A DNA stretch of 48,171 nt from Pseudomonadota bacterium (GTDB lineage: Bacteria; Pseudomonadota; Alphaproteobacteria; Acetobacterales; Acetobacteraceae). The stretch covers positions 1-48,171 of the forward strand of contig JAJZUI010000003.1 of assembly GCA_021847175.1 (NCBI GenBank), written 5' to 3'. Positions 15,823 to 48,171 of the stretch are shown piece after piece. Position 1 is the first letter of the stretch; each line of letters begins with the position of its first letter. The notes below the pieces were generated by a model, which worked only from the letters and a program-made list of their open reading frames with translations, had not been told where the DNA came from and did not search any database. The position numbers and the translations under genes were made by a program.

Positions 15823-17220
15823 ATGAGCGACAACCCATTCGGCGAGCCGGACGACAGCGAGCGCACGGTGATTCGCCCGGTGCCCGGCGGCCGGCGGCCG
15901 CCCGAGGCACCGCCCGGTGCCGCGCAAGCCGGGCCGGGCGGCGCCTTCGGGGGCTTGGGCGGCGCGCCCACCGGCCCGGGCGCCGGTTTCGCGGCGGCGT
16001 CGCCCACGCCTTCCGAGGGTGCGGAGCAGATCCGCTTCGGCACTTCGCCGCTGCTCGCGGCGGCGGCGCCGCTGCTGCAATTGCTGGCGCGGCTGCGCAA
16101 CACGCTGAACCAGCCCGACCCCGCGGAGCTGCGCGAGCGCGCGGTGCGGGAGATGCGCCAGTTCGAGGCCGCCGCGCGCGACGCGCAGATCCCGATGGAG
16201 CTGCTGCGCCCGGCGCATTACGCGCTGTGCGCCAGCCTCGACGACGCGGTGCTCAACACGCCCTGGGGCAGCCAGAGTGCGTGGGACACGCGCTCGCTCG
16301 TTTCGACCTTTCACCAGGAAGTGCGCAGCGGCGAGCGCTTCTTCTCCGTGCTCGCGCAACTGCGGCAGAACCCCGGCAGCTTCCTGCCGGTGCTCGAGCT
16401 CATGTACATGTGCCTGGCACTCGGCTTCCAGGGCCAGTACCGGCTCTCGCCGCGCGGGCAGGGCGAGCTCGAGCGGATCCGCGAGGACCTCTACACCATC
16501 ATCACCCGCCAGCGCGGCGCGGCGGAGGCCGGGCTGTCGCCGCACTGGCAGGGTGTTGCCGCGCCCTACCGGCCGGCGCGCGCACGCCTGCCGGTGTGGG
16601 TCGCGGCGGTCGGCGGCGTGCTGGTGGTGGCGCTGGCCTTCCTCGGCTTCTCGCGCAGCCTCAACGCGCGTTCCGACGCGCTGTTCGAGGCGATGGTGAA
16701 CGCGCCGCCCACCGCGATGCCGCGCCTGGTGCGCGCCGCCCCGGTGGTGCCGCCGCCGCCACCGCCCGCACCGGCGCGGCCGGGGATCCTCGAGCGGCTG
16801 CGCGGCTTCCTTGCCCCGGAGATCAAGGAGGGGTTGGTGACCGTTCTCGGCACGGAACAGATGCCGATCGTGCGCATCCGCAACACCGGCATGTTCGCCT
16901 CCGGCAGCGCCACCGTGGAATCCAGGGTGATCCCGACGCTGGAGCGCATCGGCAGCGCGCTCAAGACCGAGAAGGGCCAGGTCATCGTGTACGGCTATAC
17001 CGACAACGAACCGATCCACACGGTGCAGTTCCCCTCCAACTTCGTGCTGTCCGCGAAGCGCGCGGAGGCGGCGCGGGCGATCATCCTGAAGACCTTCGCC
17101 GAGCCCGCCCGCATCCAGGCCGTGGGCCGCGCCGACGCCAACCCGATCGCCAGCAATGCCACCGCCGCGGGGCGCGAGCAGAACCGGCGCATCGAGGTGG
17201 TGCTGCGGCGGCAAGGGTGA
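15823..17220 (+). CDS. tssL: T6SS inner-membrane protein TssL with C-terminal OmpA/peptidoglycan domain
   Basis: TssL (DotU family) forms the membrane complex with TssM and TssJ. The first 90 residues are Pro/Gly-rich and include SERTVIRPVPGGRR, with T15 placed like the threonine phosphorylated in Agrobacterium TssL. Residues 90-240 are the cytoplasmic DotU domain (RPAHYALCASLDDAVLNTPW). One membrane segment follows at about 258-280 (LPVWVAAVGGVLVVALAFLG). The periplasmic C terminus, about 340-465, is an OmpA-type domain (YGYTDNEP, FVLSAKRAEA, NRRIEVVL) that binds peptidoglycan, as in 'evolved' TssL proteins. It precedes tssM by 24 bp. Confidence 0.96.
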   Translation: MSDNPFGEPDDSERTVIRPVPGGRRPPEAPPGAAQAGPGGAFGGLGGAPTGPGAGFAAASPTPSEGAEQIRFGTSPLLAAAAPLLQLLARLRNTLNQPDPAELRERAVREMRQFEAAARDAQIPMELLRPAHYALCASLDDAVLNTPWGSQSAWDTRSLVSTFHQEVRSGERFFSVLAQLRQNPGSFLPVLELMYMCLALGFQGQYRLSPRGQGELERIREDLYTIITRQRGAAEAGLSPHWQGVAAPYRPARARLPVWVAAVGGVLVVALAFLGFSRSLNARSDALFEAMVNAPPTAMPRLVRAAPVVPPPPPPAPARPGILERLRGFLAPEIKEGLVTVLGTEQMPIVRIRNTGMFASGSATVESRVIPTLERIGSALKTEKGQVIVYGYTDNEPIHTVQFPSNFVLSAKRAEAARAIILKTFAEPARIQAVGRADANPIASNATAAGREQNRRIEVVLRRQG

Positions 17221-20763: not shown

Positions 20764-21339
20764 ATGGCGGAGGCGCGCGGCCAGTCGGGCTTCTGCGGCA
20801 AGCTGCCGAGCCGCGGCGATCACCTGGCACTCGGGCTGCCGCGCGGCTTCACGGATCCGTGGAACGCCTGGCTCGACGCAACGCTGCCCGCCGTGCGCGC
20901 GGAACTCGGCGAGACTTGGCGCGACGCATGGATGGAGGCGCCGATCTGGCATTTCTCGCTGCCCGGCGGACAATGCGGGCCGGGATCGGTGCTGGGCGTG
21001 TGGATGCCGAGCGTCGATCGCGTCGGTCGACTGTTCCCGCTCACGCTCGCCTTCGTTGCCGAGGGCGCGGCGGCGCCGGCCGATGACGCCGCCTGGCGCG
21101 AGGCCGCGGAGGCGGCAGGCCTCGCCGCACTCGCCAGCGACATGACGCCGGAGGAACTCGCCTCGCGCCTCGCCGCCGCACCCTCGCCCGGCGAGGGGAC
21201 GGAGCCGCCGGGGCCGGCGCGGTGGTGGACGGACGGCGCGCCGCGCGTGCCGGCGGGGAGCCTCGCGCTCGACCGTCTGCCGGAGCCGGAATGTCTCGCC
21301 GGCATGCTCCTTGCCCGGCGGCGGGAGACGGCGCCGTGA
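20764..21339 (+). CDS. tagF: T6SS post-translational regulator TagF (ImpM)
   Basis: TagF-type proteins repress T6SS activity independently of, or together with, the threonine-phosphorylation pathway. The 191-residue product begins with the family signature (GFCGKLPSRGDHLALGLPR, WNAWLDATLPAVRAELG) and continues with SLPGGQCGPGSVLGVWMPSVDRVGR. ATG 20764 follows the tssM stop by 3 bp. Its stop (21337-21339) overlaps the GTG start of pppA, so the two negative regulators are made together. Confidence 0.94.
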   Translation: MAEARGQSGFCGKLPSRGDHLALGLPRGFTDPWNAWLDATLPAVRAELGETWRDAWMEAPIWHFSLPGGQCGPGSVLGVWMPSVDRVGRLFPLTLAFVAEGAAAPADDAAWREAAEAAGLAALASDMTPEELASRLAAAPSPGEGTEPPGPARWWTDGAPRVPAGSLALDRLPEPECLAGMLLARRRETAP

Positions 21340-22070
21340 GCGGGCTGCGCTATCGTTCCGAGGGCATCACGCATCCCGGCGCGGTGCGCACACATAACGA
21401 GGACGCGTTCGTCGAGCGGACGGATATCGGGCTTTGGGCGGTGGCCGATGGCGCCGGCGGCCACGAGGCGGGCGAGCTCGCCTCGACAATGCTGGTCGAG
21501 GCACTGGGCAGCATCCCGGCCGGGCTCTCGGCCTCCGAGCTGCTTGCGCAGGTGCGGCTGCGCGTCACCGCCACCCACAGCGCGCTGCGCGCCGAGGCGG
21601 CGCGGCGCGGCCCGCGCACCACCATCGCCTCGACGCTGGTGGTGCTGCTGGCGCGCGACAACCATTTCGCCTGCCTCTGGGCGGGCGACAGCCGCATCTA
21701 TCTGCTGCGCGACGGCGCGCTGCACCAGCTCACGCGCGACCACAGCCTAGTGCAGGAGCTGGTGGACAACGGCATGCTGCGACCGGAGGAGGCCGAGGGA
21801 CATCCGCGCGCCAACGTCATCACGCGCGCGATCGGTGCCGACGACGCCCCGCCCGAGCTCGACAAGGTGAGCGACCGCGCGCTGCCCGGCGACCGGTTCC
21901 TGCTGTGCTGCGACGGGCTGAACAAGACGTTGCCGGAGCCGGAACTCGCCGCCCTGCTGGGCGCCGGGGACACGCCGGCCGCAGCCTTGGTCGAGGCCGC
22001 GCTGCGCCGCCGCGCCACCGACAACGTCACCGCCATCGTCGTCGAGGCGGTGATGGACCCCGGGGCGTAA
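21336..22070 (+). CDS. pppA: PP2C-type protein phosphatase PppA
   Basis: PppA removes phosphate from threonines placed by the T6SS kinase and so turns the machine off. The start is GTG 21336, overlapping the tagF stop as GTGA; an upstream ATG would lie inside tagF. The 244-residue product has the metal-binding PP2C motifs: R-T-H-N-E-D (18-23), ADGAGGHEAG (37-46, usually DGMGGH), LWAGDSRIYLLR, LLCCDGLN and TDNVTAIVVE with D229. No membrane segment is present. It ends block 1 of the T6SS, and a strong hairpin follows 72 bp after its stop. Confidence 0.95.
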   Translation: MSGLRYRSEGITHPGAVRTHNEDAFVERTDIGLWAVADGAGGHEAGELASTMLVEALGSIPAGLSASELLAQVRLRVTATHSALRAEAARRGPRTTIASTLVVLLARDNHFACLWAGDSRIYLLRDGALHQLTRDHSLVQELVDNGMLRPEEAEGHPRANVITRAIGADDAPPELDKVSDRALPGDRFLLCCDGLNKTLPEPELAALLGAGDTPAAALVEAALRRRATDNVTAIVVEAVMDPGA

Positions 22071-26993: not shown

Positions 26994-27503
26994 ATGAGTG
27001 CGTCCGTTCACGACAAGCTGAACCGTGTGCGCAAGCCGCGCGTGCATATTTCCTATGAGGTCGAGACGGAGGGCGCCCAGATTCAACGCGAGCTGCCCTT
27101 CGTCGTCGGCGTCATGGGCGATTTCTCCGGTGACCCGACGCAGCCGCTGCGCCCGCTCACCGAGCGTAAATTTGTCCAGATCGACCGTGACAATTTCGAT
27201 GACGTCATGGCCCGCATGGCGCCGGGGCTGAAGCTCAAGGTCGACAACACGCTCGCCGGCGACGGCTCGCAGATGGCGGTCGATCTGAAGTTCAACAAGA
27301 TGGAGGATTTCGAGCCCGCCCGGGTTGCCGCCCAGGTGCCGGCGTTGCAGGCGCTGATCGACACCCGCAACAAGCTGCGCGACCTGATGAGCAAGGTGGA
27401 CCGCTCGGAGGAGCTCGAGAACCTGCTCGAGCAGGTGCTCAAGAGCGAAGAAGAATTGAAGTCGCTGTCGGGCCAGCTTGGCCTCGGCAAGCAGGAGGGC
27501 TGA
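26994..27503 (+). CDS. tssB: T6SS sheath protein TssB
   Basis: TssB (VipA) pairs with TssC to form the contractile sheath. The 169-residue product starts [20 protein letters not shown] at ATG 26994 with AGGGAGGA upstream; a TTG at 26991 is less likely. Family motifs are seen: [28 protein letters not shown] and [14 protein letters not shown], with a coiled C-terminal tail rich in E/L ([13 protein letters not shown]) that packs on TssC. It is followed by tssC after 4 bp. Confidence 0.96.
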
Positions 27504-27507
27504 GCCG

Positions 27508-33876: not shown

Positions 33877-34952
33877 CCCCGGGCTCGCCGCTCGCGCGAC
33901 TCGCACGCGCGCCGTGGCGCTTCGGCTTCGATGCGGCAGTGCGGCTGCTGATGTTGCGACAGCGCAGCGAAGACCCGGCCGGCGCCATCGCCTTCCGCGC
34001 CTCGTCGGGCCTCGCCTTCCCCGCCGCCGAGGTGAGCGAGGTGAAGCTCGAGGGCGAGACCCCGCGTCTTTCCAGCCCGGTGATGACGCTGGCCGGAGCG
34101 ATGGGCGTGCTGCCACGCTATTACACGGAGGCGCTGGCCAGCGCGCTGCGCCAGCGTTCGCCCGCCTTCGCCGCCTTCCTCGACCTGCTGGCGCAGCGTC
34201 TGGTGGGTCATTTCGCCCGCGCCGGCATCAAGTACCGCCCGCACCGCGCGGTCGAGGCGGCAGCCCTCCAGCGCGCCGCGAGCGCCGGGGCGGATACCGC
34301 GCCGCGAGCCTCGGCCGATCCCGTCGCAGCGGTGCTGTTCGCGCTGACCGGGTTCGGCACCGGCCATCTGCGCGAACGTGTCGCCGCCGGCACCGATCCG
34401 CTGCTGCACTACGCGGGCACCTTCGCGCTGCGGCCGCGATCGGCGGACCGGCTCGCGGCGCTGGCAAGCGACTGGCTCGGCCGGCCGGTCGAAGTCTGCC
34501 AGTTCGCGGGCGCCTGGCTGCCGCTCTCGCGTAGCGAGCAGACCCGCCTGCCGACCGGCGCGCGGCCCGGAGCGCATGGCCGGCTCGGCGTCGATGCCGC
34601 GATCGGCGAGCGCGCCTGGGACATCCAGGGCCGGGTGGTGCTGCGCATCGGCCCGCTCGAGCGCGGGTCCTTCGTGGCCCTGCTGCCGGACCGCGAGGGA
34701 CTGCGCCAGTTCGTTTCGCTGGTGCGCGCCTATCTGGGCCTGGAGACCGATTTCGCGGTCAATCTCGTGCTCGCCGCCGCCGCCGTGCCGCCGCTCGAGC
34801 TTTCTCCCGCCGCCGAGGCGCCGCCACGGCTCGGTTGGAACACCTGGATGCCCATGCCGCGCGGCCGCACCGCGGATGCCGCCGAGGCAGTGTTCGAGGC
34901 CGCCGTCGTCGAGGCCGAAACGTTGCGGGTCACCAAGGAAACGCCCGCATGA
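33873..34952 (+). CDS. tssG: T6SS baseplate protein TssG
   Basis: TssG (gp7-like) pairs with TssF in the wedge. The start is taken as GTG 33873, giving MTPGSPLARLARAPWRFGFD, because the family start PWRFGFDAAVRLLM follows it directly; the ATG at 33807 lies inside tssF. The 359 residues contain FRASSGLAFPAAEV, GAMGVLPRYYTEAL, RAGIKYRPHRAV, HYAGTFALRPRSADRL and WDIQGRVVLRIGPL. The stop TGA (34950-34952) overlaps the ATG of the methyltransferase gene. Confidence 0.95.
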   Translation: MTPGSPLARLARAPWRFGFDAAVRLLMLRQRSEDPAGAIAFRASSGLAFPAAEVSEVKLEGETPRLSSPVMTLAGAMGVLPRYYTEALASALRQRSPAFAAFLDLLAQRLVGHFARAGIKYRPHRAVEAAALQRAASAGADTAPRASADPVAAVLFALTGFGTGHLRERVAAGTDPLLHYAGTFALRPRSADRLAALASDWLGRPVEVCQFAGAWLPLSRSEQTRLPTGARPGAHGRLGVDAAIGERAWDIQGRVVLRIGPLERGSFVALLPDREGLRQFVSLVRAYLGLETDFAVNLVLAAAAVPPLELSPAAEAPPRLGWNTWMPMPRGRTADAAEAVFEAAVVEAETLRVTKETPA

Positions 34953-36484
34953 CATCCGCCGCCGGCTGGTCGGCCGGCTACGTCACCGACACCGCCTATA
35001 TGCGCGGCTACTACCCCGAGCAGTCGCCGGTGCAGCTCGCCCTTGCTGCCCTGCTGATGGGTGTGCAGACGGACCTGCCGGGCCCCTCCGACGAGGTGAG
35101 CTACCTCGAACTCGGCTGCGGGCAGGGTTTCGGCGCCACGGTGCTGGCCGCCGCCAATCCCGGCTGGCGGATCACCGCGGTGGATTTCAATCCCGCCCAC
35201 GTAGCGGCGGCGCGGCGCACAGCGGCGGAACTCGGCCTCGCCAATATCCGCTTCCTTGAGGCCGATCTCGCCACACTGCCCGAGGATCCGCTGATGGCAG
35301 AGATCCCCGAGGCGGATGTCGCAAGCCTGCACGGCGTCTGGTCCTGGGTTTCACCCGAAGTGCGCGGCGGCATCGTGCGGCTGCTGCGCGCGAGGGTAAG
35401 GCCGGGCGGTCTCGTCCATATCAGCTACAACGCGCTGCCCGGCTGGCAGAGCGCGCTGCTGCTGCAACGCCTGGTGCGCGAGGCGGGACGACGCCTTGCC
35501 CATGGGAGCATCGAGCAGGCCCGTGCCGGCCTCGACCTGGTACGCGATCTGATGGCCGCGGAGGCCGACGGTCTCGCCAAGTCCACGCGGGTGACGGATA
35601 TCCTGCGCCTGCTCGAGAAAGCCGCGCCGGACTATATTGCCCACGAGTACATGAACGGCTGCTGGTCGCCCTGCTGGCACGCTGACGTCGCGACCGATCT
35701 CGCCGCCGCCAAGCTCGACTATATCGGATCCGCAAGGCTGCTGACCAACTTCAATGACCTGATGCTGACCGAGGCGCAGCGCGCCATCGCGAACCGCTTC
35801 GCCGATCCGCTGATGCGCGAGCTGGTTGTGGATGCCTGCAACGAGCCCACACTGCGTCACGACATCTACGTCCGCGGCACGCGCCGGCTTTCCATCGGCG
35901 CGCGCGACACGGCGCTCGAGGCGGTCACACTGGCGCTGCCCATGCCGCCGGAGGAGATGATCTACGCCGTCACCGTGCCGGCCGGGCGCGCCTCGCTTAA
36001 CGAGGCGTATTACCGCCCGATGATCGAGCACCTTGCGGAGGGGCCATGCACCGTGGGCGAGCTGCTCGCCCTGCCGGCGCTGGCCGGACATGCGCGCAAT
36101 CCCACGGAGGTGGTGGGCATGCTGCTCGGGTCCGGCCAGGCCCTGGCGCTGGCGCGGCCGGGCACGCCGATGAACAACGTCTCGCGCCACCTCAACGCCC
36201 TGACCCGAACGCGCTACCTGAACGCGGATACGATGACCCGGCCCAGCGCCATGGCGTGCCCGGCGCTGGCCGGCGGCCTGCCGACGGCGCTCGCGCATTT
36301 CTACGTCGCCGAGCGCTTCGCCGCGGCTGGCGGCATCGACGCGACGGGCATCGACACCGAAGCATGGGCGCGCCAGCTCGCTCCCGCAGACGCGCCGGCC
36401 GAGGGCATCGCGGCGCTCGCGAAACAGATGGCCGACGAGGTGCGCCGCCACGGCAGATTGTGGCGCTGGCTTGGCATCGCCTGA
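34949..36484 (+). CDS. SAM-dependent methyltransferase with regulatory domain (PKMT-like)
   Basis: The N-terminal 210 residues are a class I Rossmann methyltransferase: motif I LELGCGQGFGA (53-63), the acidic residue in AVDFNP (D79), ADLATLPED and LRARVRPGGLVHISYNALPGW. The second half (about 210-511) has the pattern of the regulatory domain found in rickettsial protein-lysine methyltransferases (HEYMNGCWSPCWHADVA, YIGSARLLTNFNDLML). Such enzymes methylate lysines of surface proteins; that target is not shown here. ATG 34949 overlaps the tssG stop as ATGA, so it is co-translated with the T6SS baseplate gene. No signal peptide is seen, so it acts in the cytoplasm. Confidence 0.85.
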   Translation: MTSAAGWSAGYVTDTAYMRGYYPEQSPVQLALAALLMGVQTDLPGPSDEVSYLELGCGQGFGATVLAAANPGWRITAVDFNPAHVAAARRTAAELGLANIRFLEADLATLPEDPLMAEIPEADVASLHGVWSWVSPEVRGGIVRLLRARVRPGGLVHISYNALPGWQSALLLQRLVREAGRRLAHGSIEQARAGLDLVRDLMAAEADGLAKSTRVTDILRLLEKAAPDYIAHEYMNGCWSPCWHADVATDLAAAKLDYIGSARLLTNFNDLMLTEAQRAIANRFADPLMRELVVDACNEPTLRHDIYVRGTRRLSIGARDTALEAVTLALPMPPEEMIYAVTVPAGRASLNEAYYRPMIEHLAEGPCTVGELLALPALAGHARNPTEVVGMLLGSGQALALARPGTPMNNVSRHLNALTRTRYLNADTMTRPSAMACPALAGGLPTALAHFYVAERFAAAGGIDATGIDTEAWARQLAPADAPAEGIAALAKQMADEVRRHGRLWRWLGIA

Positions 36485-36567: not shown

Positions 36568-37203
36568 ATGGCGAAGCTTTCCATCGCCCTCGCCGCCGCT
36601 GCCGTGGTCGGTATGACCGCGGGAGCGCAGGCACAAACCAATCCGAGTGCGAACCAGATCATCAAGGCACTGCAGCCGACTGGCACCATCTCCGGCACGA
36701 CGCGCGGCATCCGCCCCGCCGGCACGCCGCCGCCGACGCCGGCGCCAGCCCCGACCGTCCCGGCCGCCATGCCGGCGACCGCGGCGCCCGGCGTGAGCGT
36801 GGCCACTCAGCCCGCCAGCACGCCCGCGCCTGGCGCGACCCAGGCGACCAAGCCGCCGTCGGTCAACCTGTCGGTGGAGTTCGCCAATGGCTCCGCGGCG
36901 CTTACGCCGGCGGCGCGGCATACGCTCGACCAATTGGGCAAGGCGCTGACCTCGGCCGAGCTCGCGAGCTACCGCTTCCGCATCGCCGGCCACACGGACA
37001 CGGTCGGCACCCACGCCTACAACCTTACGCTCTCGCAACAGCGGGCGGACGCGGTGGCGCATTACCTCGAGAGCAAGTTCTCGATCCCCGCCTCGCGGCT
37101 GCAGGCGATTGGGCGCGGCGAGCAGGGCCTGCTGGTGCCGACGCCGCCCCAGACGCCGGAGCCTCGCAACCGCCGCGTCCAGATCACCAACCTCGGCACC
37201 TGA
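36568..37203 (+). CDS. Secreted OmpA-family peptidoglycan-binding protein
   Basis: The 211-residue product has a signal peptide (MAKLSIALAAAAVVGMTAG, cleavage probably after A22 in AQA-QTN), a Pro/Ala/Thr-rich linker (about 45-95) and a C-terminal OmpA domain (VEFANGSAALTPAARHTLDQ, FRIAGHTDTVGTHAYN, LSQQRADAV, NRRVQI). OmpA domains bind diaminopimelate in peptidoglycan. No lipobox is present, so it is a soluble periplasmic protein. It follows the T6SS methyltransferase after 83 bp, in which TTTTAAATCGAG may be part of a promoter. It could anchor the T6SS or the exoprotein at the cell wall. Confidence 0.88.
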   Translation: MAKLSIALAAAAVVGMTAGAQAQTNPSANQIIKALQPTGTISGTTRGIRPAGTPPPTPAPAPTVPAAMPATAAPGVSVATQPASTPAPGATQATKPPSVNLSVEFANGSAALTPAARHTLDQLGKALTSAELASYRFRIAGHTDTVGTHAYNLTLSQQRADAVAHYLESKFSIPASRLQAIGRGEQGLLVPTPPQTPEPRNRRVQITNLGT

Positions 37204-37269: not shown

Positions 37270-39372
37270 TCACTGCGCCGCGGTGCGCACGAGGATCGCG
37301 CGCACCGACACTTTCACGCCCTTGGCCTCGGCGGCCTGGATCGCCGGTCCGAGGGCCGCGAGATAGGCCGAAAGCGTGTCGTTCGCTGGGCGCGGCGTGC
37401 TGAACAGCGGCGCCGAGGACGCGATGGCGAGAATCATGTCGGTGCCGTAGGGCGGTGCCACGGTCCAGCCGATCGTGGACGCGCTGCAGTTGCAGAACGC
37501 CGGGTCGCCGATCGCGACCGTCGCCCCCGCCGGCAGCACCTTCGAGGCTGCCGCCGCGTCGACAGGGAGGTGTTTCACCGTCCCGTCCGGCAGCGTGATG
37601 TCGAGCATCTTCTCGTCGGCAGATGGCTGCAGGTGCGCGAGGCTGCCGTCGTTGGCGATGTAGTCCACCAGCAGGTAGCTCGGATAATCGGGCAGGCGCA
37701 GCTGCGGGATGACGTGCGCGTCCTTGAGCAGGCGCCCGGAGGCGCCGGCGAGGGAGAGGCCGAGTGCCGGCGCGGTGCCGAAGGCGGGAACCGCCGCGTG
37801 CACCGCATCAAGCACCGGGCAGTAGGGGCCGGAGAACGTATCGACCCCGAGCGTCGCCTGCGACGCGCCGGCGCTCGCCAGCGCCTGGCGCAGGGCTGAA
37901 CGCTGCGCCTCGCCGAGCAATCCGCCGACCTGCACGCCGCCGTCGGACGCAACGGAGCCATCGAGCATGGCGCACGGGACCGGCCCCAGCGCCGCCGCGA
38001 GGTGCCGACTCAGCGCCGCGGTATCGATCGCCGGCGCCGGTGTCGGCGCGGGTGAGGCGGCCGGGGCGGGCGATGGAGCCGGGGTTGGCGTGGGCGTCGG
38101 CATGGGCGCGGGGGTCGTCGTTGGCGCCGGGGTTGGCGCCGGTATGGGGGCCGGTTGGGGCGTCGCCGGTTGGGGCGCCGGTGCGGGGGCGGATTTCGGG
38201 GCGGGTGCCGGGGTCGGCGTCGGGGCTGGTGCCGGTGCCGGCTTGGGCGCGGGCGCCGTTGCCGGGGTGGAGACGGGCGCGGGTTTTGGTGCGGGCGTCG
38301 GCGTGTTGCCGCCGAGCAGGAAATATCCGCCCGCCGCGACCGCCACGACCACCGCCGCGATGCCGCCGAGCAGTAGTGCCCTGCCACCCTGCGACGGTTT
38401 CGGTTCCGGACCGGGCGACGGAGCTGGCACCGCAGCAGGTGGCGTGAGCGGCGCGTTGCCGAGCGCGATCCCGGCGGCGCTGCTCATCACCAGCGTCGCC
38501 TCGGTGGCGTCGCCCTCACCAGCGGCCCTTGCGGCCGCCACGGCCGGTTCGCCACCGCCCTCCATCGCCTGGCGCAAGGCGGCCGCGAAGGCGGCGGCGT
38601 TGGGGAAGCGCGCGTCGGGGCGCTTGGCCATCGCGCGCGCCACCACCGCGTCGAAGGCATGCGGCGCAGTCACCGAGAGATCCGACGGGCGCGGCGGATC
38701 CGTGTTCAGCACCTTGTGCATGATCGCCGTCATGCTGCCGTCGAACGGCCGCTCGCCGGTGAGCATCTGGTAGAGAACGACGCCCGCGGAATAGATGTCG
38801 GTGCGCAGATCGACCGTCTGGCCCATGAACTGCTCGGGCGACATGTAGGCGGGCGTGCCCATGATCGTGCCCGCCTGCGTCATGCTGCTGCTCTCGATGC
38901 GGGCGATGCCGAAATCGGCAATCTTCACCGTGCCGTCGCGCGTCAGCATGATGTTGGCGGGCTTGATGTCACGATGCACCACGCCTCGCTCGTGGCTGTA
39001 GGCGAGGCCGGCGAGCAGCCCCTCCATCACCCGCACGATCTCCCTGGGCGGCAGGCGCTCGTTGGCGTCGAGAACCGCCTTGAGCGAGCGGCCGTCGATG
39101 AACTCCATCACGATGTAGGCGAGGCTGTCGGTCTCGCCGTAATCGAAGATGCCGACGATATTGGGATGCGCGAGGCGTCCCGCGGCCTGCGCCTCGCGCT
39201 TGAAGCGCGCGAACTCATCCACCGCCTCGGTGTCGTTCGGGTCGGGCCGCACCGCGGTCTTGATGGCGACGCGGCGGTCGATCACCGGATCGAGGGCGTC
39301 GTAGACCGTGCCCATCGCCCCTTTGCCGAGGACGCCGCGGATTTCGTACTTGCCGAGCTTCTCGCCTTCCAC
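37270..39372 (-). CDS. ppkA: Membrane Ser/Thr protein kinase with periplasmic DUF4384-like domain (PpkA type)
   Basis: The likely start GTG 39370-39372 gives 700 residues, 28 bp after the CHAT stop; an ATG at 39468 would overlap that gene. The Hanks-type kinase domain is complete: GKGAMGTVY loop, K38 in [11 protein letters not shown] with D135 (133-140), DFG at 153-155 and [10 protein letters not shown]. One membrane segment lies at about 330-350 ([20 protein letters not shown]), then a Pro/Ala/Thr-rich stretch of 120 residues. The periplasmic C terminus has a BON-like part ([26 protein letters not shown]) and a DUF4384-like part ([27 protein letters not shown]). It is the only kinase seen near the T6SS, so it is the likely partner of PppA and TagH. 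Confidence 0.9.
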
Positions 39373-39400
39373 GCCGTCCGTTCCCGTCTTGCGACGGCGA

Positions 39401-42400
39401 CTATAGCGGCGCGTTGTGGCGCGTGGGAGATGCGGAAGCCGTGGTGTGCATGCCCTCGCCGCCGCCATCGCCGATCAGCGCGAACGGCGCCCAGTAGAAC
39501 GGGTGCGAGAGCTCCGCCGGAAGCCCCTTCCCCGCGCCGTCGATCATCGCGAGTTCCGCCGAGCGTAGCGCGCCGCCCAGCCCCGCCGAGGGCCTTGCCG
39601 CGTAGCGCGCGAGCGTGTCGGCGATCAGGTAGGCGGCGGTCTGGTCGTTCACCGACCAGTGCGTGACGATCAGCGCCCGAGCGCCGGCGTAGAAAAACGC
39701 GCGCGCCAGGCCGGACAGGGCTTCACCCGCCTGCCCGCCGGAAGGCCCACCTGTGTTGCAGGCCGAGAGGATCACCGCGTTGGCATCCAGATGCAGCCCC
39801 GTCACCTCGGAGGCGGTCAGCAGCGCGCCGGACGCGTTCCTCGCCCCGGCGGGCGCCGAGGTCACGATCGCCGGCTCGTTCTGGCAGGCGAGGTCCGTGG
39901 GCAGCAGCGCATGGGTGGCGAAGTGGAGGATGCGGTAGCGGCTGAGCGGCAGCTTCTCGACCGCCGCGGCTGTGAAGGCGGGACCGAGCAGTTCGTCGCG
40001 CCTGCTGGCGCCCAGCAGTTCCCGCGCCGCCGTGAGCTCGCGCGTGGCATAGGGCAGCGGCGGCAGGCCGGCAAAGAGCTGCGCGCTGTCGCCGCAGCGC
40101 GCGCCGAAGCTCGCCTGCGCCTGCGCCAGCGTCACCGGCTGGAAATCGCCGAAGCCGAACCAGGGCCTGGTCGCGCGCGACGTGCCGGCGACGCGGCGCA
40201 GCGAAACGAAGTTCGCCGCCGCCGGCACGTGCGCCACCGTCATCTCGCGGATGAGCCAGGGCGCGGCACCGAGATCGCCGGCGTTGCCGGGCGCGGTCAG
40301 GAGCAGCGCGAAGGGCAGCGACAGCAGCGGCCCGCTCGGCGCCACGACGAGACGGCGCGTGCCCGCGAAGGCCTTGCCGAAGCCGCCGAACACGTCCTGG
40401 TAGAGGGTGTGCGCGTCGGCGACGTCGAAGGGCGGCGGCGCAGCACTCGTGCCCTCGATGCTGGCGCGGATGTGCTGCACCAGCCCGACCATGCGCGGCT
40501 CGCCGCCCGGGATGCGCGCCACGTGGATGGCGCCGTCGCGCAGCAGGAACGACCAGCCGTGGTTCGGGCCCAGCACGGTATCGACGAAGGCCTCGCCCGG
40601 CCGCAGGGCGGCGAAGACCTGCTTCGCGCTCGCCACCTGCTGCACCAGCTGGCCATAGTTCGGCGCCGCCGCCTGCAGCGCCGCATCGGCGTTGGCGAGC
40701 GTCTTGCGCGCCTCCGCGATGCGCGCCTCGAGCGCGGCCGGCGCGGCGGCCTGGCCGGTGATCTGCTGCATGCGGTCGCGCTCGCGGTAGAGCCGGCTCA
40801 GCGCCTGCGCCGCATCCTGCCGCGCGCGGATCGCGGCACCGACCTTCGGGTTGCGCGCATTCGCCGCCAGCCGCGCCGTCGCCTGCGCGATTTCGGTGCT
40901 GGTCACCGTGCCCTGCGCGAGCTGGCTCGCCGCGAACATCTCGGCGAGGAGGTCCTGGGCCTTGGGGCCGTGCGCGTTGGCTGCATAGGCGTCGAGGCAG
41001 GGGTCGATGAGCGTCGCGCTGGTGCCGAGCTTGAGGTCGCGCAGCAGCCCGATGGCGCGATGGCACAGGCCGAGCGCCGCGTCGGGCTGACCGGCGGCGA
41101 CCAGCTGGCCGGCGCGCAGCAGCTCGGTCTCCGCGACCGGCCGGCTGTCGGGGATCGCGCGGGCGAAGTCCGCGGCCGCCGCGCCGAAGGTGCTTGCCGC
41201 CGGACTGTGCAGGCCGGCGGCGCTGAGATCGGCCGCGGAGGTGCGCGTCAGCCGCGCCACCAGTACCGGCTGCGTGACCCCGTTGGCGGCCGCCAGCGTC
41301 TGGGCCGAGCGCAGGGCGGCGAGCGCCTCCTTCTGCTGGCCGAGCCGGCGCAGCACGATCGACTCGTAGCGCCGCACCTCGATCAGCCCGAGCAGGCTGT
41401 TGCGGGTGGTGATGTTCGTCAGAAGGTTGCGGTTAGGCAACAATTGGCCGAGATTGGCGCCGGGGCCGGCGAAGACCGAGCCCGCGGTGTCGGGCGCGGG
41501 CCTGGCTTCGAGCACCCCCTTCGGCAGCAACTGCGCGTAATCCTTGGCCGCCACGCGTAGCTGCTTCAGCGCGATCCTGAGATGGCCCTCGTTGAGCGCG
41601 TGCAGCGCCTCGTAGTGGTTGAGCCGCGCGATGGTCGTGGGATCGGAGGCGCGCGGCGCCAGTGCAGCGGCCTCCGCGAACAGGCGGTCCGCCTCGGGGT
41701 AATGGCCCTGGTCCGAGACCTGCAAGGCGAGGTCCATGATGGTGAGGGCGGTGTCAGGGTTGTGCTGCCCCAGCGCCTTGCGCTGCAGCGCCAGCGCCGC
41801 GCGATAGGCCGCCTCGGCGCCGGCGAAATTCTCCGCCGCGTTGGCCTCGGCCGCGACGGTCATCAGCTGGTCGTACTGGCCGACATCGCCCGAGCTGAAG
41901 GCCTGGGCAGCGAGCCGGCTGGCCAGCAGCTCATCCGCGCCGGAGGTGACCGCGGCGCTCGCCGCCGACGGGCTGATGCGCCCGGCCATCACGCCCATCG
42001 CGCGTTCCATCGCCGGCAGTGCCGGCAGCACGCCGTCGGCGTACCAGCCCTGCCCGCCGATCGACGCGACAAGGGCCACGTGCGGCCAGCCGCCGACCCG
42101 CTGCGTGCACTGCAGCAGTTCCGCGGGTGAGCCGTTGAGGATCGTGGTCGCCTGCGGCGACTGGCAGCGGTAGCGGCTCTCCAGCGCCGAACGCCAGCTG
42201 CCGCCCGCGGCGAGCGCCGGCAGGGCGGCGGGGCTCACCCGGCCGGCCGAGGAGACCCGCGCGCTAGGCTGCTGCCAGGTGCCGCAATAGACGGAGCCGT
42301 TGCCGCCGTTGCGCAGCAGCGTGCACGCCTCGTTCGCGGTGTTGTGGCCGAGCGGCAGCCCGCCGACGTGCCCCCCCGGCAGCGAGGTGCCGGCGACGTA

Positions 42401-42472
42401 GGCTGAGGCCGGCGGCTGCGCGCAGCCGGCCAGGACCGTGAGCAGCACCAGCGGGACGAGGGGAAGGCGCAT
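39401..42472 (-). CDS. CHAT-protease lipoprotein with TPR-like repeats
   Basis: The 1023-residue product starts with a lipoprotein signal (MRLPLVPLVLLTVLAGC, lipidated C17), so it is fixed to a membrane facing the periplasm. The middle (about 190-500) has TPR-like helices (AEAAYRAALALQRKALGQHN, DTALTIMDLALQVSDQGHYP). The C terminus is a CHAT domain of the caspase-like clan: H854 in ILHFATHALL and C905 in ILSACNTGG form the expected dyad, followed by GLARAFFYAGARALIVTHWSVND. A region resembling the CHAT-linked N-terminal part, GEAFVDTVLGPNHGWSFLL, precedes it. It starts about 1 bp after the stop of the exoprotein gene. Most CHAT proteins are cytoplasmic; a lipid-anchored one is less usual. Confidence 0.93.
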   Translation of the reverse strand: MRLPLVPLVLLTVLAGCAQPPASAYVAGTSLPGGHVGGLPLGHNTANEACTLLRNGGNGSVYCGTWQQPSARVSSAGRVSPAALPALAAGGSWRSALESRYRCQSPQATTILNGSPAELLQCTQRVGGWPHVALVASIGGQGWYADGVLPALPAMERAMGVMAGRISPSAASAAVTSGADELLASRLAAQAFSSGDVGQYDQLMTVAAEANAAENFAGAEAAYRAALALQRKALGQHNPDTALTIMDLALQVSDQGHYPEADRLFAEAAALAPRASDPTTIARLNHYEALHALNEGHLRIALKQLRVAAKDYAQLLPKGVLEARPAPDTAGSVFAGPGANLGQLLPNRNLLTNITTRNSLLGLIEVRRYESIVLRRLGQQKEALAALRSAQTLAAANGVTQPVLVARLTRTSAADLSAAGLHSPAASTFGAAAADFARAIPDSRPVAETELLRAGQLVAAGQPDAALGLCHRAIGLLRDLKLGTSATLIDPCLDAYAANAHGPKAQDLLAEMFAASQLAQGTVTSTEIAQATARLAANARNPKVGAAIRARQDAAQALSRLYRERDRMQQITGQAAAPAALEARIAEARKTLANADAALQAAAPNYGQLVQQVASAKQVFAALRPGEAFVDTVLGPNHGWSFLLRDGAIHVARIPGGEPRMVGLVQHIRASIEGTSAAPPPFDVADAHTLYQDVFGGFGKAFAGTRRLVVAPSGPLLSLPFALLLTAPGNAGDLGAAPWLIREMTVAHVPAAANFVSLRRVAGTSRATRPWFGFGDFQPVTLAQAQASFGARCGDSAQLFAGLPPLPYATRELTAARELLGASRRDELLGPAFTAAAVEKLPLSRYRILHFATHALLPTDLACQNEPAIVTSAPAGARNASGALLTASEVTGLHLDANAVILSACNTGGPSGGQAGEALSGLARAFFYAGARALIVTHWSVNDQTAAYLIADTLARYAARPSAGLGGALRSAELAMIDGAGKGLPAELSHPFYWAPFALIGDGGGEGMHTTASASPTRHNAPL

Positions 42473-42473
42473 G

Positions 42474-45400
42474 TCAGTAATCCTTCCGCGCGATGCCCGG
42501 CAGCAGGATCTGAAAGTCGTTGTTCTGCGGCGGGGCCACCGACAGCATGAGACCGTTCAACGGGTTCGAGGGTATGACAAGAACCACCGGCAGCACCACG
42601 CACGAGACCGACTCGATCGGGCAATTGTTAAGCGTGTAGTTGCCGTTCTGCGCCGGCACGATCTTCGAGTTCTGTGCCGCCGTGGTGCCGGTGAGCGAAC
42701 CGACGGAGCCGTTAAGTCTTGCGCTGCCGACGCCGCCGATCACGGTGAGGCCGGCAACATTGAGGTTGCCGGTCGCGCTGCCGCCCTGGATGCCGAGGAT
42801 GAGGTTGAGCGCCGAGCCCTGGAGGTTCGCGAGCGAGACCGTGCCGCCCGTGAGCGGCAGTTGCAGCCGCAGCGTCGCCGACGGCGCGTTGCCAGGCGAA
42901 ACGGTGGTCTGGCCGACCTGCCGGATCTGCGCGTTCGGGCCGCTGACGCTGATGTAGCTACCGGGATTGGAAGGCGCCGCGCCGATCTGCTGGCTGGTCG
43001 GCAGCCCGTCGGTCACGATGTTGCCGGCGATGGTGACCTGGCCGATCGCGCTGATGGCGAGGTAGCCGGCGACGATCGGGCCCTGGATGACGAGCGGCAG
43101 GTTGTCGCCCAGCGCCAGCGTGCTGCCGGACATGACGAAGGGTCCAAGCGTGCCGACGTAATCGCCGCTGCCGAAATCGGCGAGTTGCGTCGCCGAGCCG
43201 GTGATCCTGCCCGCCACCAGTCCGCCTGAGACGTGCTGGACCGTACTCGTGCTCGCGAGGCTCCAGGTGTTGGCGACCGTGAGGTCGCCCGTGACGACGA
43301 CGGGCTGGGTCTCGCGGAGGTAGAAATTGGCGACGTCCAACGGGCCCGTGATCGTGAGCGGCGCACCGTCAACGAGGGACAGGTTCTGGCCATGCGCGGC
43401 GATGGTGCCGAGCGTGCCGATCCGGTTGCCGGTCTGCGCCAGGTCGATCCCGCCGCTGGCGACCCTTGCGGACAGGGCGGTGTTGCCCGTTATGGAGCCG
43501 ACGGCGGTCTCGATCACGGCGGTCGTAAGGCCCCGCGTGCTCGAGGTGAGGGCGACAGCCGGCGCCGCGATCGGGCCGTTGAGAACGATGGCCGGCACGT
43601 TGGCGCCGGCGAACCCATTGCCGGCCGTGAGGGAAACCACGCCGCCGGAGGTGAGCGGCGCGTCGACGGCGATCGCGATGCCGGTGGCGCTGTCCGTGAT
43701 CGTGAGATTGCCGCCAGCCGCGATCGGGCTGGAAAGCGCGAGCGGGATCGTGTCGGCGACGAGGAACGCTCCGGTGGTCGCGTGCCCGGCGACGCTGCTG
43801 ATGCGGTTGCCCGTGCCGGCGAGCGCGACACCACCGCTCGCGGCCGCCGCGCTGACGACGGTGGCGCCGGCCGGACCCTCGAGCACGCTCGAGGACGATT
43901 GCAGGATCGCAGCGCCCGGGATGCCCGCAGCGGTGCTCGCGAGCGCGATGGCCGACCCCATGAGGGTGCCGTCCAGCGTCATCGGCACCCCAGCTCGGGC
44001 GCTATCTGTCAGCACGATGTTGCCCGTGGCGGCGGACAGCATGCCGGATTGCACGAGCGGCGCGACGTCGGCGATCGCGATGCCGCCGGGCGCGGCAAGC
44101 CCGGTGACGGCATCGATCGAATTGTTAACGGAACCCAACGACACGCCGCCGCCGCCGATGCCGCCGGTGCTGGTCAGCACCATCGCACGCACCGCGCCGC
44201 CCGTGCCCTCGCCGAACCCGCTCGCCGCGGTCACGTCGAGCGTGCCGGCGCCGGCATCGAGCGTGCCCGCCACCGCGACCGGGCCCGCGTTCGCGACCAG
44301 CGTGACGCCGTTGGCGCCGGCGAGCGAGCCGGTGACGCGCATGCCTGCGGGATCGGTAATCGCCACCGTGTTGGCGACGAGCCCGCTGATGGTCAGCGGC
44401 GCGATATCGTTGATCAGGACGTCGCCGCTCGACACCAGCGGCGCGCCAATGATGTCGATCGAGCTGGCTTGGATGGTGAGGTCGCCGAGGCCAGCGTGGC
44501 TCAGCAAGGTTGCGGCAACGATCGTTCCGCTTCCGAGGAGCTGGGTAAAGGCGCTGCCGGAAATGTCGAGCGTGCCGGGGGTCAGCAGCGAGCCGGACAG
44601 CAGCGCACTCCCCGACGGGGTCGCGAGCCGCACCCCGACGGTGCCGGAGATCGTTCCCATCACGTTCAGCGCAGTTCCGGCGGCATTATCCGTCACGGCC
44701 ACGCTCGCCGCGCTCACGGAGGCCGGGATCAGCAGCGGCGCCTGGTCCGCGAGGGTGAGAACGTATCCGGGCAGCGACAGGGCGCCGAGCACGCCGATGC
44801 TGTTCGCCGAGGCGCCCAGCAGCACGTTGCCGCCCAGGCCGCCAGTGCTTTGCAGCGTGCTGGCGAGGATCGCGCCGCCGCTCTGCGTCGCCCCGGCGGC
44901 GCTCGTCAGATCCACGATTGCGCCGGGCGAGCCCACGGTCCCGGACAGCAGCAGCGGCCCCGCGATCGCATCCAGGCTCACCAGGGACGTGCCGGAAGCC
45001 TCGCCGGTCACCGAGATGGTCGGCGCCGCGAGCATGATGCCTGTCCCGCTGACGCTGCCCAGGACGGCGAGCGACTGCGCCGAGAGCACATCCACGCCGC
45101 CGGCCGATGCGAGCGAGCCGAGTGCGGCGATACTGTTGCCGGCGAGGGCCAGGTTGAGCGAGGCGACACCGGAGGCGCTCTGCACCACCCCCGCGCGCAC
45201 CGTCCCCGCGCTCTGCGTCACCGCGCCAGGCGAGCTCACGTCCAGCACGCCGCCCGCTCCCGCGTCGACGGAACCGGCCAGCAGCAGACCGCCCGCGTTC
45301 TTCGCGTCCAGCGTGATCCCAGACGCACTCAGCGGGCCGTCCACCACCAGCGGCTGGTTGTCGATCAGCGCGAAGCTGCCGCCCGTCACCGCGAACGTGC

Positions 45401-48171
45401 CCAGCGTCGCGATCGTGTTGCCCGCGCCAAGCGACACGTTGCCCGCCGCCGAGCCCACCAGCGTCGACGCGATCAGCGTCCCGCCGCTCTGCGCAATCCC
45501 GCCCGCGCTCGACAGGTCCAGCGTGCCACCGACATCCACCAGGCCCGACAGCGACAGCGCCTGACCCGCCGCCGTGTCCGCCAGCGTCGCCGTCGATGCC
45601 TGCACCGGGCCCGCCACGTCCAGCGTGCCGCTGCCAACCGACACATCCACCGTGCTGCCCGCAGCCGCAACCTTGCCGAGCACGCCGATCGTGTTGCCGT
45701 TGCCAAGCAGCACCGACCCCGTCGGGCCAGACGGCAGCGTCAGCGTCCCCGCCGAGATCACCCCGCCCGCACCCTCCGTCACGCCCAACCCGAGCGGATC
45801 GAGCGTCACCGCGCCGCTGCCCGCCAGCGTCCCGCCAGCGAGCGTGATCCCCGGCGCCTGCACCCACACCGATCCCGCCTGCGCCACCCCATCGATCGAC
45901 AGCGCACCCGTCACCGCCAGCGACAGACCGCCGCCCGACGTCACCGCCACGTCGCCCAGCGCGCCGATCGTGTTGCTGCCCGCCACCAGCGACAGACCGC
46001 CCAAGCCGATCCCCCCGCCACTCGCCAGCGTGCCCGCGACAATCGTGCCGCCAGCCTGCGCAATCCCGCCGTTCGGCGCGCTCAGGTCCAGTGTGCCGCC
46101 AGGCGCCGTCTGCACGCTGCCGCGAAGGCTGATCGCCGGACCCGTCGCGGTATCGTCCAGCACCACGTTGCCCGACGGCGCCGCGATCACCGATGCACCC
46201 GACAGGCTCAGCGCCGCCGTGTCCTGCACCACCACGTCGCCCGCCCCGGCCTGCAGCACGCCGATCGACGCGATGCTGTTCAAGCCGCCCAGCGTCACTC
46301 CCTGCCCGATGGTCCCAACACTCGTCAGCAGCGGCGTCGCCAAAACCCCCGACGCCGTGCTCGACACCCCGCCATTGAGCGCGTTGAGCGTCACCGACGT
46401 CGAACCCGCGAGCGAACCCGCGAGCGTGATCGCCGTCCCAGACGCCTCGTCCGACAGCATCACCACACCACCGCGAACCGGACCCGTCACGTCCAGCGCC
46501 AAACTGTCGTTGACCGATATCGCTCCCGTCCCAGCATCCACCGAGCCGAGGTTGGGGATGGCGTTGGTGGCACTGCCAAGATGCAGACTGCCCACCGCGC
46601 CCTCGAACGTGCCGCCGGCGGCGAGCGTCAGCGGCTGGTTGACTACCGCGCCGCCCGTCGTCTCCAGGTCCAGCGTGCCGACCCCGGTCGCATTCACGGT
46701 CCCGCCCGCGGTGATGCTGCCGGCGGTCGCGGTCGCGAGGTCGGTTCTGCCCAGCCGCAGCGTCCCCGCGGTGATCGCGCTCAGGTCGCCCGGCGCGATG
46801 GCGTTGGGGGCGGAAGAGGCCAGCGCCACCTTGCCGCTGTTGCCGGTGGGACCGAGCGCCACCAGCCCGCCGGGTGCGAACAACGACCCGCCGGCCGCGA
46901 ACGCGAAGATGTTGTCTGCGATCTCGAGCGTCTGACCGCCGCCGACCGTGACCGTGCCCGCGACCGTGAGCGGCGACGTGTCCCGCAGCCGCAGGTCGCC
47001 GCCGGTCACGCCGAGCGTGGAAAGCGTGCCGATGACGTTTGCCGTGCCTGAGAGATCGGCCGTGCCGGCGATGCCGCCGCTGCTGGTGAGCGTCGAGGCG
47101 ATGAGCCGGCCGCTCGCGGCGTGGATGCCGCCCCCCGCCGTGGAGAGATCGAGCGTGCCAGCAGCGGGATCGGCCGCGAGGGTGCCGCCGACGGTGATGC
47201 CGGCGGTGCCGCTGTTTGCGACGGTGATGCTGGTGGCCGAGACCAGGCCCGCAATCTGCGGATCGAGGCTGCCGGTGAGCGTCACGCCGAAGCCAGATGC
47301 CAGCACGTTGCCGACATTCTGGATTGCGTTCGCCGAGTTCCCCAGCGCCACGTCGCCACCCGCCGTCGGCACCAGCAGCGTACCCGCCGAGATCACGCCG
47401 GACGCCGTTTCCGTGATCCCGCCATTCGGGGCCGAGAGCGACAGCGTGCCAGGCGTCGACACGCCGGCGTTCAGCGTGATCGCCGTGCCTGCGGCCCTGT
47501 CATTGACGACGACGTTGCCGGCCTGCAACGAACCGGCGACAGTGAGGGCACTGACGTCGATGAGGCGCACGTCACCGGTGAGCGTGCCGATCGCGCCGAG
47601 GGTCGCGAGCGTGTTGGTGGCCGCGTCGAGCGTGACGCCGCCCTTTAGGCCGGTCGAGGAGGTGAGCTCCGTGGCCACGAGCGTGCCGCCGTTCTGCGTC
47701 AGCCCGCCGGCGGCGTTGGCGAGCAGCGTGTCGGCCTGGAGCGTGCCCGCGGAAAGCGTGATCGTTCCGGTCCCGGCCTCGATATCGAGCACCGGGATGC
47801 CGGCGAGATTGGCGCTTCTGGCAACGTTCACGCCCGTGCCCTGGAGGACCAGGTCGCCTGCGGTGATGGCCGCCAGCGCCGCGGGGTCGATCGAGACCGT
47901 GTTCGCCCCGCCGGCTCCGACGCCGAGGCCGTCGGTCGGCGGAAACGCCGCGATCGCCACGGTGCCGCCCGGCGCGACCAGCGAGCCGCCGCCAGACACC
48001 AGGCCGCCGACCGTGAGGCCGATCGGATCCAGGGTCGGGACCGACACCGTGCCGCCGAGCGTGAGCTTGCCGGTATCGGTGAGCTGCAGGCCGCCGCCGG
48101 TCACCGCGAGGGAGCCGAGGGTGCCGATCGCGTTGGTGCCTTGCAGGTTCATGCCGCCGGCCACGCCGAGG
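42474..48171 (-). CDS. Giant repetitive secreted protein, TpsA/filamentous-haemagglutinin-like (5' part beyond window)
   Basis: The frame stays open from the stop at 42474 to the window edge, giving about 1898 residues without an N terminus. About sixteen copies of a roughly 95-100-residue unit are seen, each carrying an N-x-I-x-x-LG motif (GTNAIGTLG, SANAIQNVG, GSNTIGALG, TGNRIGTLG), a turn like DEASGTAITL or DTAAGQALSL and TLDLSAPNGGI. The unit suits a right-handed beta-helix. The C terminus has the only cysteines I see (NNCPIESVSC), followed by VVLPVVLVIPSNP and LLPGIARKDY, as in TpsA exoproteins linked to CHAT genes. The N-terminal secretion domain and a TpsB-type transporter are expected beyond 48171. 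Confidence 0.82.
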   Translation of the reverse strand, partial: LGVAGGMNLQGTNAIGTLGSLAVTGGGLQLTDTGKLTLGGTVSVPTLDPIGLTVGGLVSGGGSLVAPGGTVAIAAFPPTDGLGVGAGGANTVSIDPAALAAITAGDLVLQGTGVNVARSANLAGIPVLDIEAGTGTITLSAGTLQADTLLANAAGGLTQNGGTLVATELTSSTGLKGGVTLDAATNTLATLGAIGTLTGDVRLIDVSALTVAGSLQAGNVVVNDRAAGTAITLNAGVSTPGTLSLSAPNGGITETASGVISAGTLLVPTAGGDVALGNSANAIQNVGNVLASGFGVTLTGSLDPQIAGLVSATSITVANSGTAGITVGGTLAADPAAGTLDLSTAGGGIHAASGRLIASTLTSSGGIAGTADLSGTANVIGTLSTLGVTGGDLRLRDTSPLTVAGTVTVGGGQTLEIADNIFAFAAGGSLFAPGGLVALGPTGNSGKVALASSAPNAIAPGDLSAITAGTLRLGRTDLATATAGSITAGGTVNATGVGTLDLETTGGAVVNQPLTLAAGGTFEGAVGSLHLGSATNAIPNLGSVDAGTGAISVNDSLALDVTGPVRGGVVMLSDEASGTAITLAGSLAGSTSVTLNALNGGVSSTASGVLATPLLTSVGTIGQGVTLGGLNSIASIGVLQAGAGDVVVQDTAALSLSGASVIAAPSGNVVLDDTATGPAISLRGSVQTAPGGTLDLSAPNGGIAQAGGTIVAGTLASGGGIGLGGLSLVAGSNTIGALGDVAVTSGGGLSLAVTGALSIDGVAQAGSVWVQAPGITLAGGTLAGSGAVTLDPLGLGVTEGAGGVISAGTLTLPSGPTGSVLLGNGNTIGVLGKVAAAGSTVDVSVGSGTLDVAGPVQASTATLADTAAGQALSLSGLVDVGGTLDLSSAGGIAQSGGTLIASTLVGSAAGNVSLGAGNTIATLGTFAVTGGSFALIDNQPLVVDGPLSASGITLDAKNAGGLLLAGSVDAGAGGVLDVSSPGAVTQSAGTVRAGVVQSASGVASLNLALAGNSIAALGSLASAGGVDVLSAQSLAVLGSVSGTGIMLAAPTISVTGEASGTSLVSLDAIAGPLLLSGTVGSPGAIVDLTSAAGATQSGGAILASTLQSTGGLGGNVLLGASANSIGVLGALSLPGYVLTLADQAPLLIPASVSAASVAVTDNAAGTALNVMGTISGTVGVRLATPSGSALLSGSLLTPGTLDISGSAFTQLLGSGTIVAATLLSHAGLGDLTIQASSIDIIGAPLVSSGDVLINDIAPLTISGLVANTVAITDPAGMRVTGSLAGANGVTLVANAGPVAVAGTLDAGAGTLDVTAASGFGEGTGGAVRAMVLTSTGGIGGGGVSLGSVNNSIDAVTGLAAPGGIAIADVAPLVQSGMLSAATGNIVLTDSARAGVPMTLDGTLMGSAIALASTAAGIPGAAILQSSSSVLEGPAGATVVSAAAASGGVALAGTGNRISSVAGHATTGAFLVADTIPLALSSPIAAGGNLTITDSATGIAIAVDAPLTSGGVVSLTAGNGFAGANVPAIVLNGPIAAPAVALTSSTRGLTTAVIETAVGSITGNTALSARVASGGIDLAQTGNRIGTLGTIAAHGQNLSLVDGAPLTITGPLDVANFYLRETQPVVVTGDLTVANTWSLASTSTVQHVSGGLVAGRITGSATQLADFGSGDYVGTLGPFVMSGSTLALGDNLPLVIQGPIVAGYLAISAIGQVTIAGNIVTDGLPTSQQIGAAPSNPGSYISVSGPNAQIRQVGQTTVSPGNAPSATLRLQLPLTGGTVSLANLQGSALNLILGIQGGSATGNLNVAGLTVIGGVGSARLNGSVGSLTGTTAAQNSKIVPAQNGNYTLNNCPIESVSCVVLPVVLVIPSNPLNGLMLSVAPPQNNDFQILLPGIARKDY

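Follow-up and report, generated by a model that had tools for sequence, protein, structure and literature searches.

The PpkA-PppA-Fha pathway of P. aeruginosa, S. marcescens and A. tumefaciens controls T6SS through a membrane Hanks kinase, and in A. tumefaciens the PpkA-dependent phosphorylation of TssL on Thr14 recruits Fha (PMC3953482). Envelope proteins that partner PpkA have been described in three systems, namely TagQRST, RtkS and TssW, of which TagQRST and RtkS act as periplasmic activators of their T6SS kinases; none is described as similar to the exoprotein and peptidase considered here. In two-partner secretion (TPS), the C-terminal disulfide loop of HMW1 and HxuA retains the TpsA exoprotein in TpsB from the periplasmic side, and the known maturation proteases are not encoded in these operons (PMC5422565). 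The TpsA protein CdrA has a tail in the periplasm, which LapG cleaves in a manner governed by c-di-GMP (PMC5422565). The DUF4384 domain has been reported in proteins that have a kinase domain at the N-terminus and also as the C-terminal part of caspase-fold proteins from Alphaproteobacteria (PMC6426788). No paper combining the terms “CHAT domain” and “two-partner secretion” was found in the literature searched.

An operon of exoprotein, CHAT lipoprotein and membrane kinase

The window analyzed here is an entire contig of 48171 bases, taken from a 3.70 Mb draft genome of the Acetobacteraceae (290 contigs, 94.5% complete, G+C 70.5%). Genes were called by GC3, and the results are limited by the incompleteness of draft genomes. 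At one end of the window, a TpsA-type exoprotein (42474..48170), a CHAT lipoprotein (39401..42472) and a membrane Hanks kinase (37270..39372) are encoded on the reverse strand, as are all motifs within them, with gaps of 1 and 28 bp. The TGA of the exoprotein gene is followed by one base and then by the ATG of the CHAT gene at 42472, and the CHAT stop codon by 28 bases and then by the GTG of the kinase gene at 39372. This confirms the three-gene arrangement beside a T6SS proposed in an earlier, sequence-only reading. The arrangement exceeds chance, because the identical gene order was found again in many genera when the loci of relatives were compared; the 60 loci fetched have the order tpsB, tpsA, CHAT, often followed by the kinase. 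Convergent with the kinase gene is that of an OmpA-family periplasmic/outer-membrane protein (36568..37203, forward strand; PF00691, 9e-22), a conserved neighbor which adjoins the kinase in many relatives. A methyltransferase with a regulatory domain (34835..36484, forward strand; PF10119, 1e-24, and PF13649) sits between TssG and OmpA, a position kept in several relatives. Rfam and tRNA scans gave no matches.

The exoprotein reading frame is open at the contig end, leaving 1898 aa present, and comparison with syntenic relatives places the N-terminal TPS domain beyond it. Since the N-terminus is cut off by the contig end, the part within the window matches neither Pfam nor NCBIfam, and for the same reason the lack of a match in a TPS-domain search of its own genome was expected; control genomes likewise gave none. 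A syntenic exoprotein (L044) carries the TPS domain (PF05860, 1.4e-24), and in relatives TpsB is encoded directly upstream of tpsA (ShlB 3e-11 and POTRA_2 2e-10 in a representative gene); no TpsB gene is present on the window's contig. Near the C-terminus is a Cys loop, NNCPIESVSC (42600..42629), a candidate periplasmic disulfide anchor, and two Cys occur in the tail of 45 of 56 TpsA-position proteins of the family. The conserved extreme C-terminus, ILLPGIARKDY (42477..42509), corresponds to an LPN[VI][SA]xxD[YF]-stop pattern found in most TpsA of the family. As in HMW1 and HxuA, there is a large repetitive exoprotein with a Cys loop near its C-terminus and, in relatives, a TPS domain paired with a ShlB/POTRA_2 TpsB; unlike in those systems, a protease gene lies inside the operon and the exoprotein has the conserved LPNxxxxDY-type end. 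By analogy, the Cys-loop tail probably stays periplasmic, and since the loop of HMW1 and HxuA is periplasmic, the tail would be the part of TpsA within reach of a periplasmic lipoprotein. The ends of TpsA are family-specific, with LPN[VI][SA]xxD[YF] in Acetobacteraceae and GNEDLW/GKDALW-like endings in other families, mostly after a C-x(n)-C loop. In this comparison, which covered the tails of CHAT-linked systems, such ends are candidate tags by which the paired CHAT protein may recognize its TpsA.

The second gene encodes a predicted lipid-anchored TPR-CHAT cysteine peptidase of 1023 aa (PF12770, 5e-46), whose TPR region matches kinesin-light-chain-like TPR. Its signal peptide, MRLPLVPLVLLTVLAGC, contains a lipobox LAGC (42422..42433) with Cys17, for which lipidation is predicted, and the catalytic residues of the CHAT domain are found as His854 in LHFATHALL (39902..39928) and Cys905 in ILSACN (39755..39772). 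All three residues are invariant in alignment A1. Its sequence indicates a cysteine peptidase of the active type that is located outside the cytoplasm. It is the sole CHAT gene product of the genome (94.5% complete), and its nearest relative (92%) is from MAG REEB303. The TPR-CHAT proteases Csx29/Craspase and HetF share the combination of TPR with a CHAT domain bearing a His-Cys dyad; the protein described here differs in its lipobox-predicted location outside the cytoplasm and in its link to secretion and signaling rather than to CRISPR or cell division. The closest working analogue of TpsA-CHAT is CdrA/LapG. In CdrA-LapG-LapD, too, a TpsA exoprotein keeps a tail in the periplasm, the cysteine protease acts outside the cytoplasm, and the signaling partner spans the membrane. 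However, the operon holds neither a LapG-type protease nor a LapD receptor: the protease is a lipid-anchored TPR-CHAT protein, and the partner is a Ser/Thr kinase here, or a CHASE2 cyclase elsewhere, instead of a c-di-GMP receptor.

The third gene encodes a PpkA-like kinase of 700 aa (PF00069, 7e-53) with all Hanks catalytic motifs, one transmembrane segment (38314..38379, from hydropathy and sequence) and a periplasmic domain, and thus has the architecture of PpkA. A juxtamembrane EATLVM motif (38485..38502), identified by eye, is a candidate phospho-Thr and FHA docking site; inspection found motifs of the type [DE]x[DE]AT[LMIV] at this position in kinases of genomes with and without T6SS alike. 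The earlier suggestion of a periplasmic DUF4384-like domain (PF14326, 37408..37680) stands for the isolated C-terminal segment, which scores 28.7 against a cut-off of 27, and for 25 of 27 kinase orthologues, in which the domain was matched; within the full protein the score of 25.0 falls below the cut-off. An AF2 model of residues 471-700 has a pLDDT of 90.4, and a fold search with the DUF4384 domain gave no confident PDB match. The kinase had been called the only one near the T6SS, and it proves to be the only Hanks kinase over the cut-off in the whole genome (94.5% complete). An anti-phage defense reading (PD-T4-6, MADS) was considered. In PADLOC only the kinase has matches, to PD-T4-6 models and largely through its catalytic domain, the best one spanning aa 6-446; the CHAT protein and the exoprotein have none.

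The T6SS cluster and candidate phospho-threonine sites

The rest of the contig encodes VgrG, PAAR, TagH, TssJ, TssK, TssL, TssM, TagF, PppA, Hcp, ClpV, TssB, two TssC-like proteins, TagJ, TssE, TssF and TssG. The cluster had been described as complete, which is borne out except that TssA (ImpA) was not recognized among the ORFs scanned (8613-36484). On the forward strand lie TagH/Fha (12363..13928; PF00498, PF20232, TIGR03354), whose FHA domain is the presumed phospho-Thr reader, TssL (15823..17220; PF09850), TagF (20764..21339; PF09867, 6e-35) and the phosphatase PppA (21291..22070; PF13672, 2e-15). The kinase therefore shares its contig with TagH, TagF and PppA, the linkage expected of a PpkA, and no tagQRST-like genes occur among the Pfam matches of the window genes scanned, in agreement with the sequence-only reading. 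The N-terminus of TssL carries a DDSERTVIRP motif with Thr15 at 15865-15867, and a DDSDRTV[IV]R-like N-terminal Thr motif is present in 20/20 relatives fetched; it resembles the PpkA target of A. tumefaciens (PMC3953482). The locus thus shares with the PpkA-PppA-Fha pathway a membrane Hanks kinase, PppA, TagF, TagH and the TssL motif. It differs in having DUF4384 as the periplasmic domain of the kinase and no TagQRST in the window, in co-encoding the kinase with a TPS system and a CHAT lipoprotein, and in that orthologues of the kinase persist without T6SS. The candidate partners, TpsA, CHAT and OmpA, are extracytoplasmic or envelope proteins as are TagQRST, RtkS and TssW, which they are likened to by role and not by sequence.

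Several further features of the cluster were recorded. The tandem TssC-type sheath genes (27478-28998 and 29002-30540) both match VipB, and the second also matches TIGR03355. A DUF6931 protein (11418-12059) is encoded between VgrG and PAAR, and beside VgrG also in L061, L105 and L237; it is a candidate T6SS adaptor. The 1269-aa ClpV ORF is a start-codon artifact, with the likely start at 25490.

In most relatives, a single-TM protein of 330-400 aa is encoded opposite the kinase, and HE[LIV][SGA]H is present in all 41 sequences compared (an example at L053:3418-4206 plus 40 relatives), with an invariant NE beyond the HExxH. This protein belongs to no Pfam family, and a fold search gave no confident PDB match despite an AF2 pLDDT of 95. 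Its cytoplasmic N-terminus carries DDDTVRL-like motifs (acidic-Thr-hydrophobic) similar to that of TssL. These motifs track T6SS: under a pattern set after the sequences had been viewed, they are found in 29/30 genomes with T6SS and 1/11 without (Fisher p 1e-7, not fully corrected for phylogeny). On the tree of the HExxH protein, the number of changes is 5 for T6SS and 6 for the motif, and none of the independent pairs runs in the opposite direction, these pairs (3-5) being too few for a sign test. The sole T6SS-negative genome that keeps the motif (L042, G243) is a draft 88% complete in about 520 contigs, so a T6SS may have been overlooked there or recently lost. In the genus of the window the interval from kinase to OmpA lacks an HExxH gene; the protein is therefore evidence on the system and not part of the window. 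It also occurs in another family, in the order HExxH-tpsB-tpsA-CHAT (L241, L246). The simplest reading of these sequences would be that Thr motifs link the substrates of the kinase to the FHA protein of the T6SS.

Distribution within and outside the Acetobacteraceae

We examined 249 genomes of the same family, searching for the kinase via its catalytic domain (kinase clade defined by E below 1e-90) and for T6SS by TssK and then TssC, the latter checked in CHAT-positive or kinase-positive genomes. A clear CHAT relative is found in 96/249 genomes and TssK in 109/249, with 75 containing both (Fisher p 2e-18, uncorrected for phylogeny). TssK alone gave false T6SS absences, as TssC was present in 8 of 25 genomes tested as T6SS-negative, and adding this marker places a T6SS in 79 of the 96 CHAT-positive genomes; an operon found mostly without T6SS would have spoken against the proposed link, and in the family the opposite is seen. 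The kinase is present in 96 of the 249 genomes, accompanied by CHAT and T6SS in 71, by CHAT only in 15, by T6SS only in 10 and by neither in 0. That the kinase belongs with T6SS is indicated by its being the sole candidate in the window's genome, by the 10 genomes with T6SS only, and by nine places where it is not adjacent to CHAT and lies within 28 kb of tssK. An association of the TpsA-CHAT pair with the kinase is indicated by an adjacency kept in three arrangements, with TPS-CHAT co-directional, divergent or downstream relative to the kinase, and many loci show synteny with TssG, TssF and PppA. In the environmental acidophile Acidocella facilis ATCC 35904 (L059/L199), the locus reads tpsA-CHAT-kinase-HExxH-OmpA-TssG.

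A dedication of the operon to T6SS is not supported. The 15 genomes with kinase and CHAT that lack both TssK and TssC span seven genera; the kinase adjoins CHAT in twelve of them and lies at most 13 kb away in the remaining three, and some of these T6SS-less loci (L117, L123, L128) retain PppA-like genes together with the kinase. Falsiroseomonas bella is an example of a T6SS-less species. The module therefore has some T6SS-independent role, and the T6SS link is real but non-exclusive. TPS-CHAT occurs without a detected kinase in 22/60 loci of the family. Among 385 sampled Alphaproteobacteria, 64 have CHAT relatives, 56 of them without a strong TssK. Class-wide, 7 other genomes have both, and in 4 of these CHAT and tssK are no more than 35 kb apart (chance about 1e-5). 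Outside the Acetobacteraceae, a CHASE2-nucleotide cyclase (adenylate/guanylate) often occupies the place of the kinase in TPS-CHAT operons, adjoining TpsA-CHAT in L242, L243, L245, L248 and L249 by Pfam and in L244, L247, L251 and L256 by inspection. In L247 there is, in addition, an MscS channel that bears a cyclic-nucleotide-binding domain. From these cyclases it follows that the constant element is TpsA-CHAT, often with a transmembrane signaling enzyme, and that kinase plus T6SS is the Acetobacteraceae version of it.

Proposed surface sensing and T6SS control

The reading we favor, and to which we give even credence, is that TPS-CHAT is a surface- or envelope-sensing module coupled to a PpkA-type kinase shared with the neighboring T6SS, the kinase reading the state of TPS-CHAT and licensing the T6SS. 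TpsA would be exported through TpsB with its Cys-loop tail left in the periplasm, where the CHAT lipoprotein may bind or cut it. The periplasmic DUF4384 domain of the kinase would then read the state of the TpsA/CHAT/OmpA assembly, and the kinase would phosphorylate Thr at acidic-Thr-hydrophobic motifs in itself, in TssL and, in relatives, in the HExxH protein. The FHA domain of TagH would read phospho-Thr and license T6SS assembly, with PppA resetting the system. The sequence-only reading keeps its connection of kinase with T6SS and of TpsA-CHAT with kinase, and the signal it proposed, namely the exoprotein or its cleavage acting inward, is a candidate. In its strict form, the purpose of exoprotein and CHAT would be to switch on the T6SS kinase as a functional substitute for TagQRST, for which the T6SS in 79/96 CHAT-positive genomes, the shared synteny and the periplasmic activators of T6SS kinases elsewhere would speak; set against the 15 genomes with kinase and CHAT but no T6SS, and a class-wide distribution that is mostly T6SS-free, such dedication is improbable.

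It is rather unlikely that information flows the other way, with the kinase as sensor and T6SS and TPS-CHAT as parallel outputs, such that the kinase would control, through CHAT, whether TpsA is retained or released and would separately license T6SS. CdrA/LapG, in which cytoplasmic c-di-GMP controls the cutting of a TpsA tail in the periplasm (PMC5422565), is a precedent, and the persistence of the kinase, in some loci with PppA, beside TPS-CHAT in T6SS-less genomes and the CHASE2 cyclases in its place elsewhere are consistent with such an arrangement, but with CHAT predicted to lie outside the cytoplasm, a cytoplasmic kinase would have to act on it across the membrane, and the external position of DUF4384 points to inward sensing. 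Mere neighborhood, in which the kinase serves the T6SS and TPS-CHAT is an unrelated adhesin brought adjacent by a shared genomic island, would account for the TPS-CHAT loci without a detected kinase in the family and in other families. We consider it very improbable, given the retention of kinase and CHAT without T6SS, the adjacency kept across three arrangements, and the Thr motif of the HExxH partner, which tracks T6SS presence.

Under the favored model of a kinase shared between the two systems, the constant company of CHAT, T6SS or both in relatives suggests that surface sensing and T6SS firing share one switch. TpsA-CHAT is a genetically defined candidate input for a T6SS kinase outside Pseudomonas and Serratia, for which relatives with the TpsA-CHAT-kinase module and without T6SS form a natural control group. 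Two-partner secretion gains a built-in protease and signaling partner, and a caspase-fold peptidase is predicted to be placed outside the cytoplasm. More tentatively, TpsB-TpsA-CHAT may be a general alphaproteobacterial surface-to-cytoplasm signaling system, using a lipid-anchored caspase-fold protease to translate the state of a giant secreted protein into signals carried by kinases or cyclic nucleotides; in Acetobacteraceae this system would be wired into the T6SS phospho-switch via Thr motifs gained and lost with T6SS.
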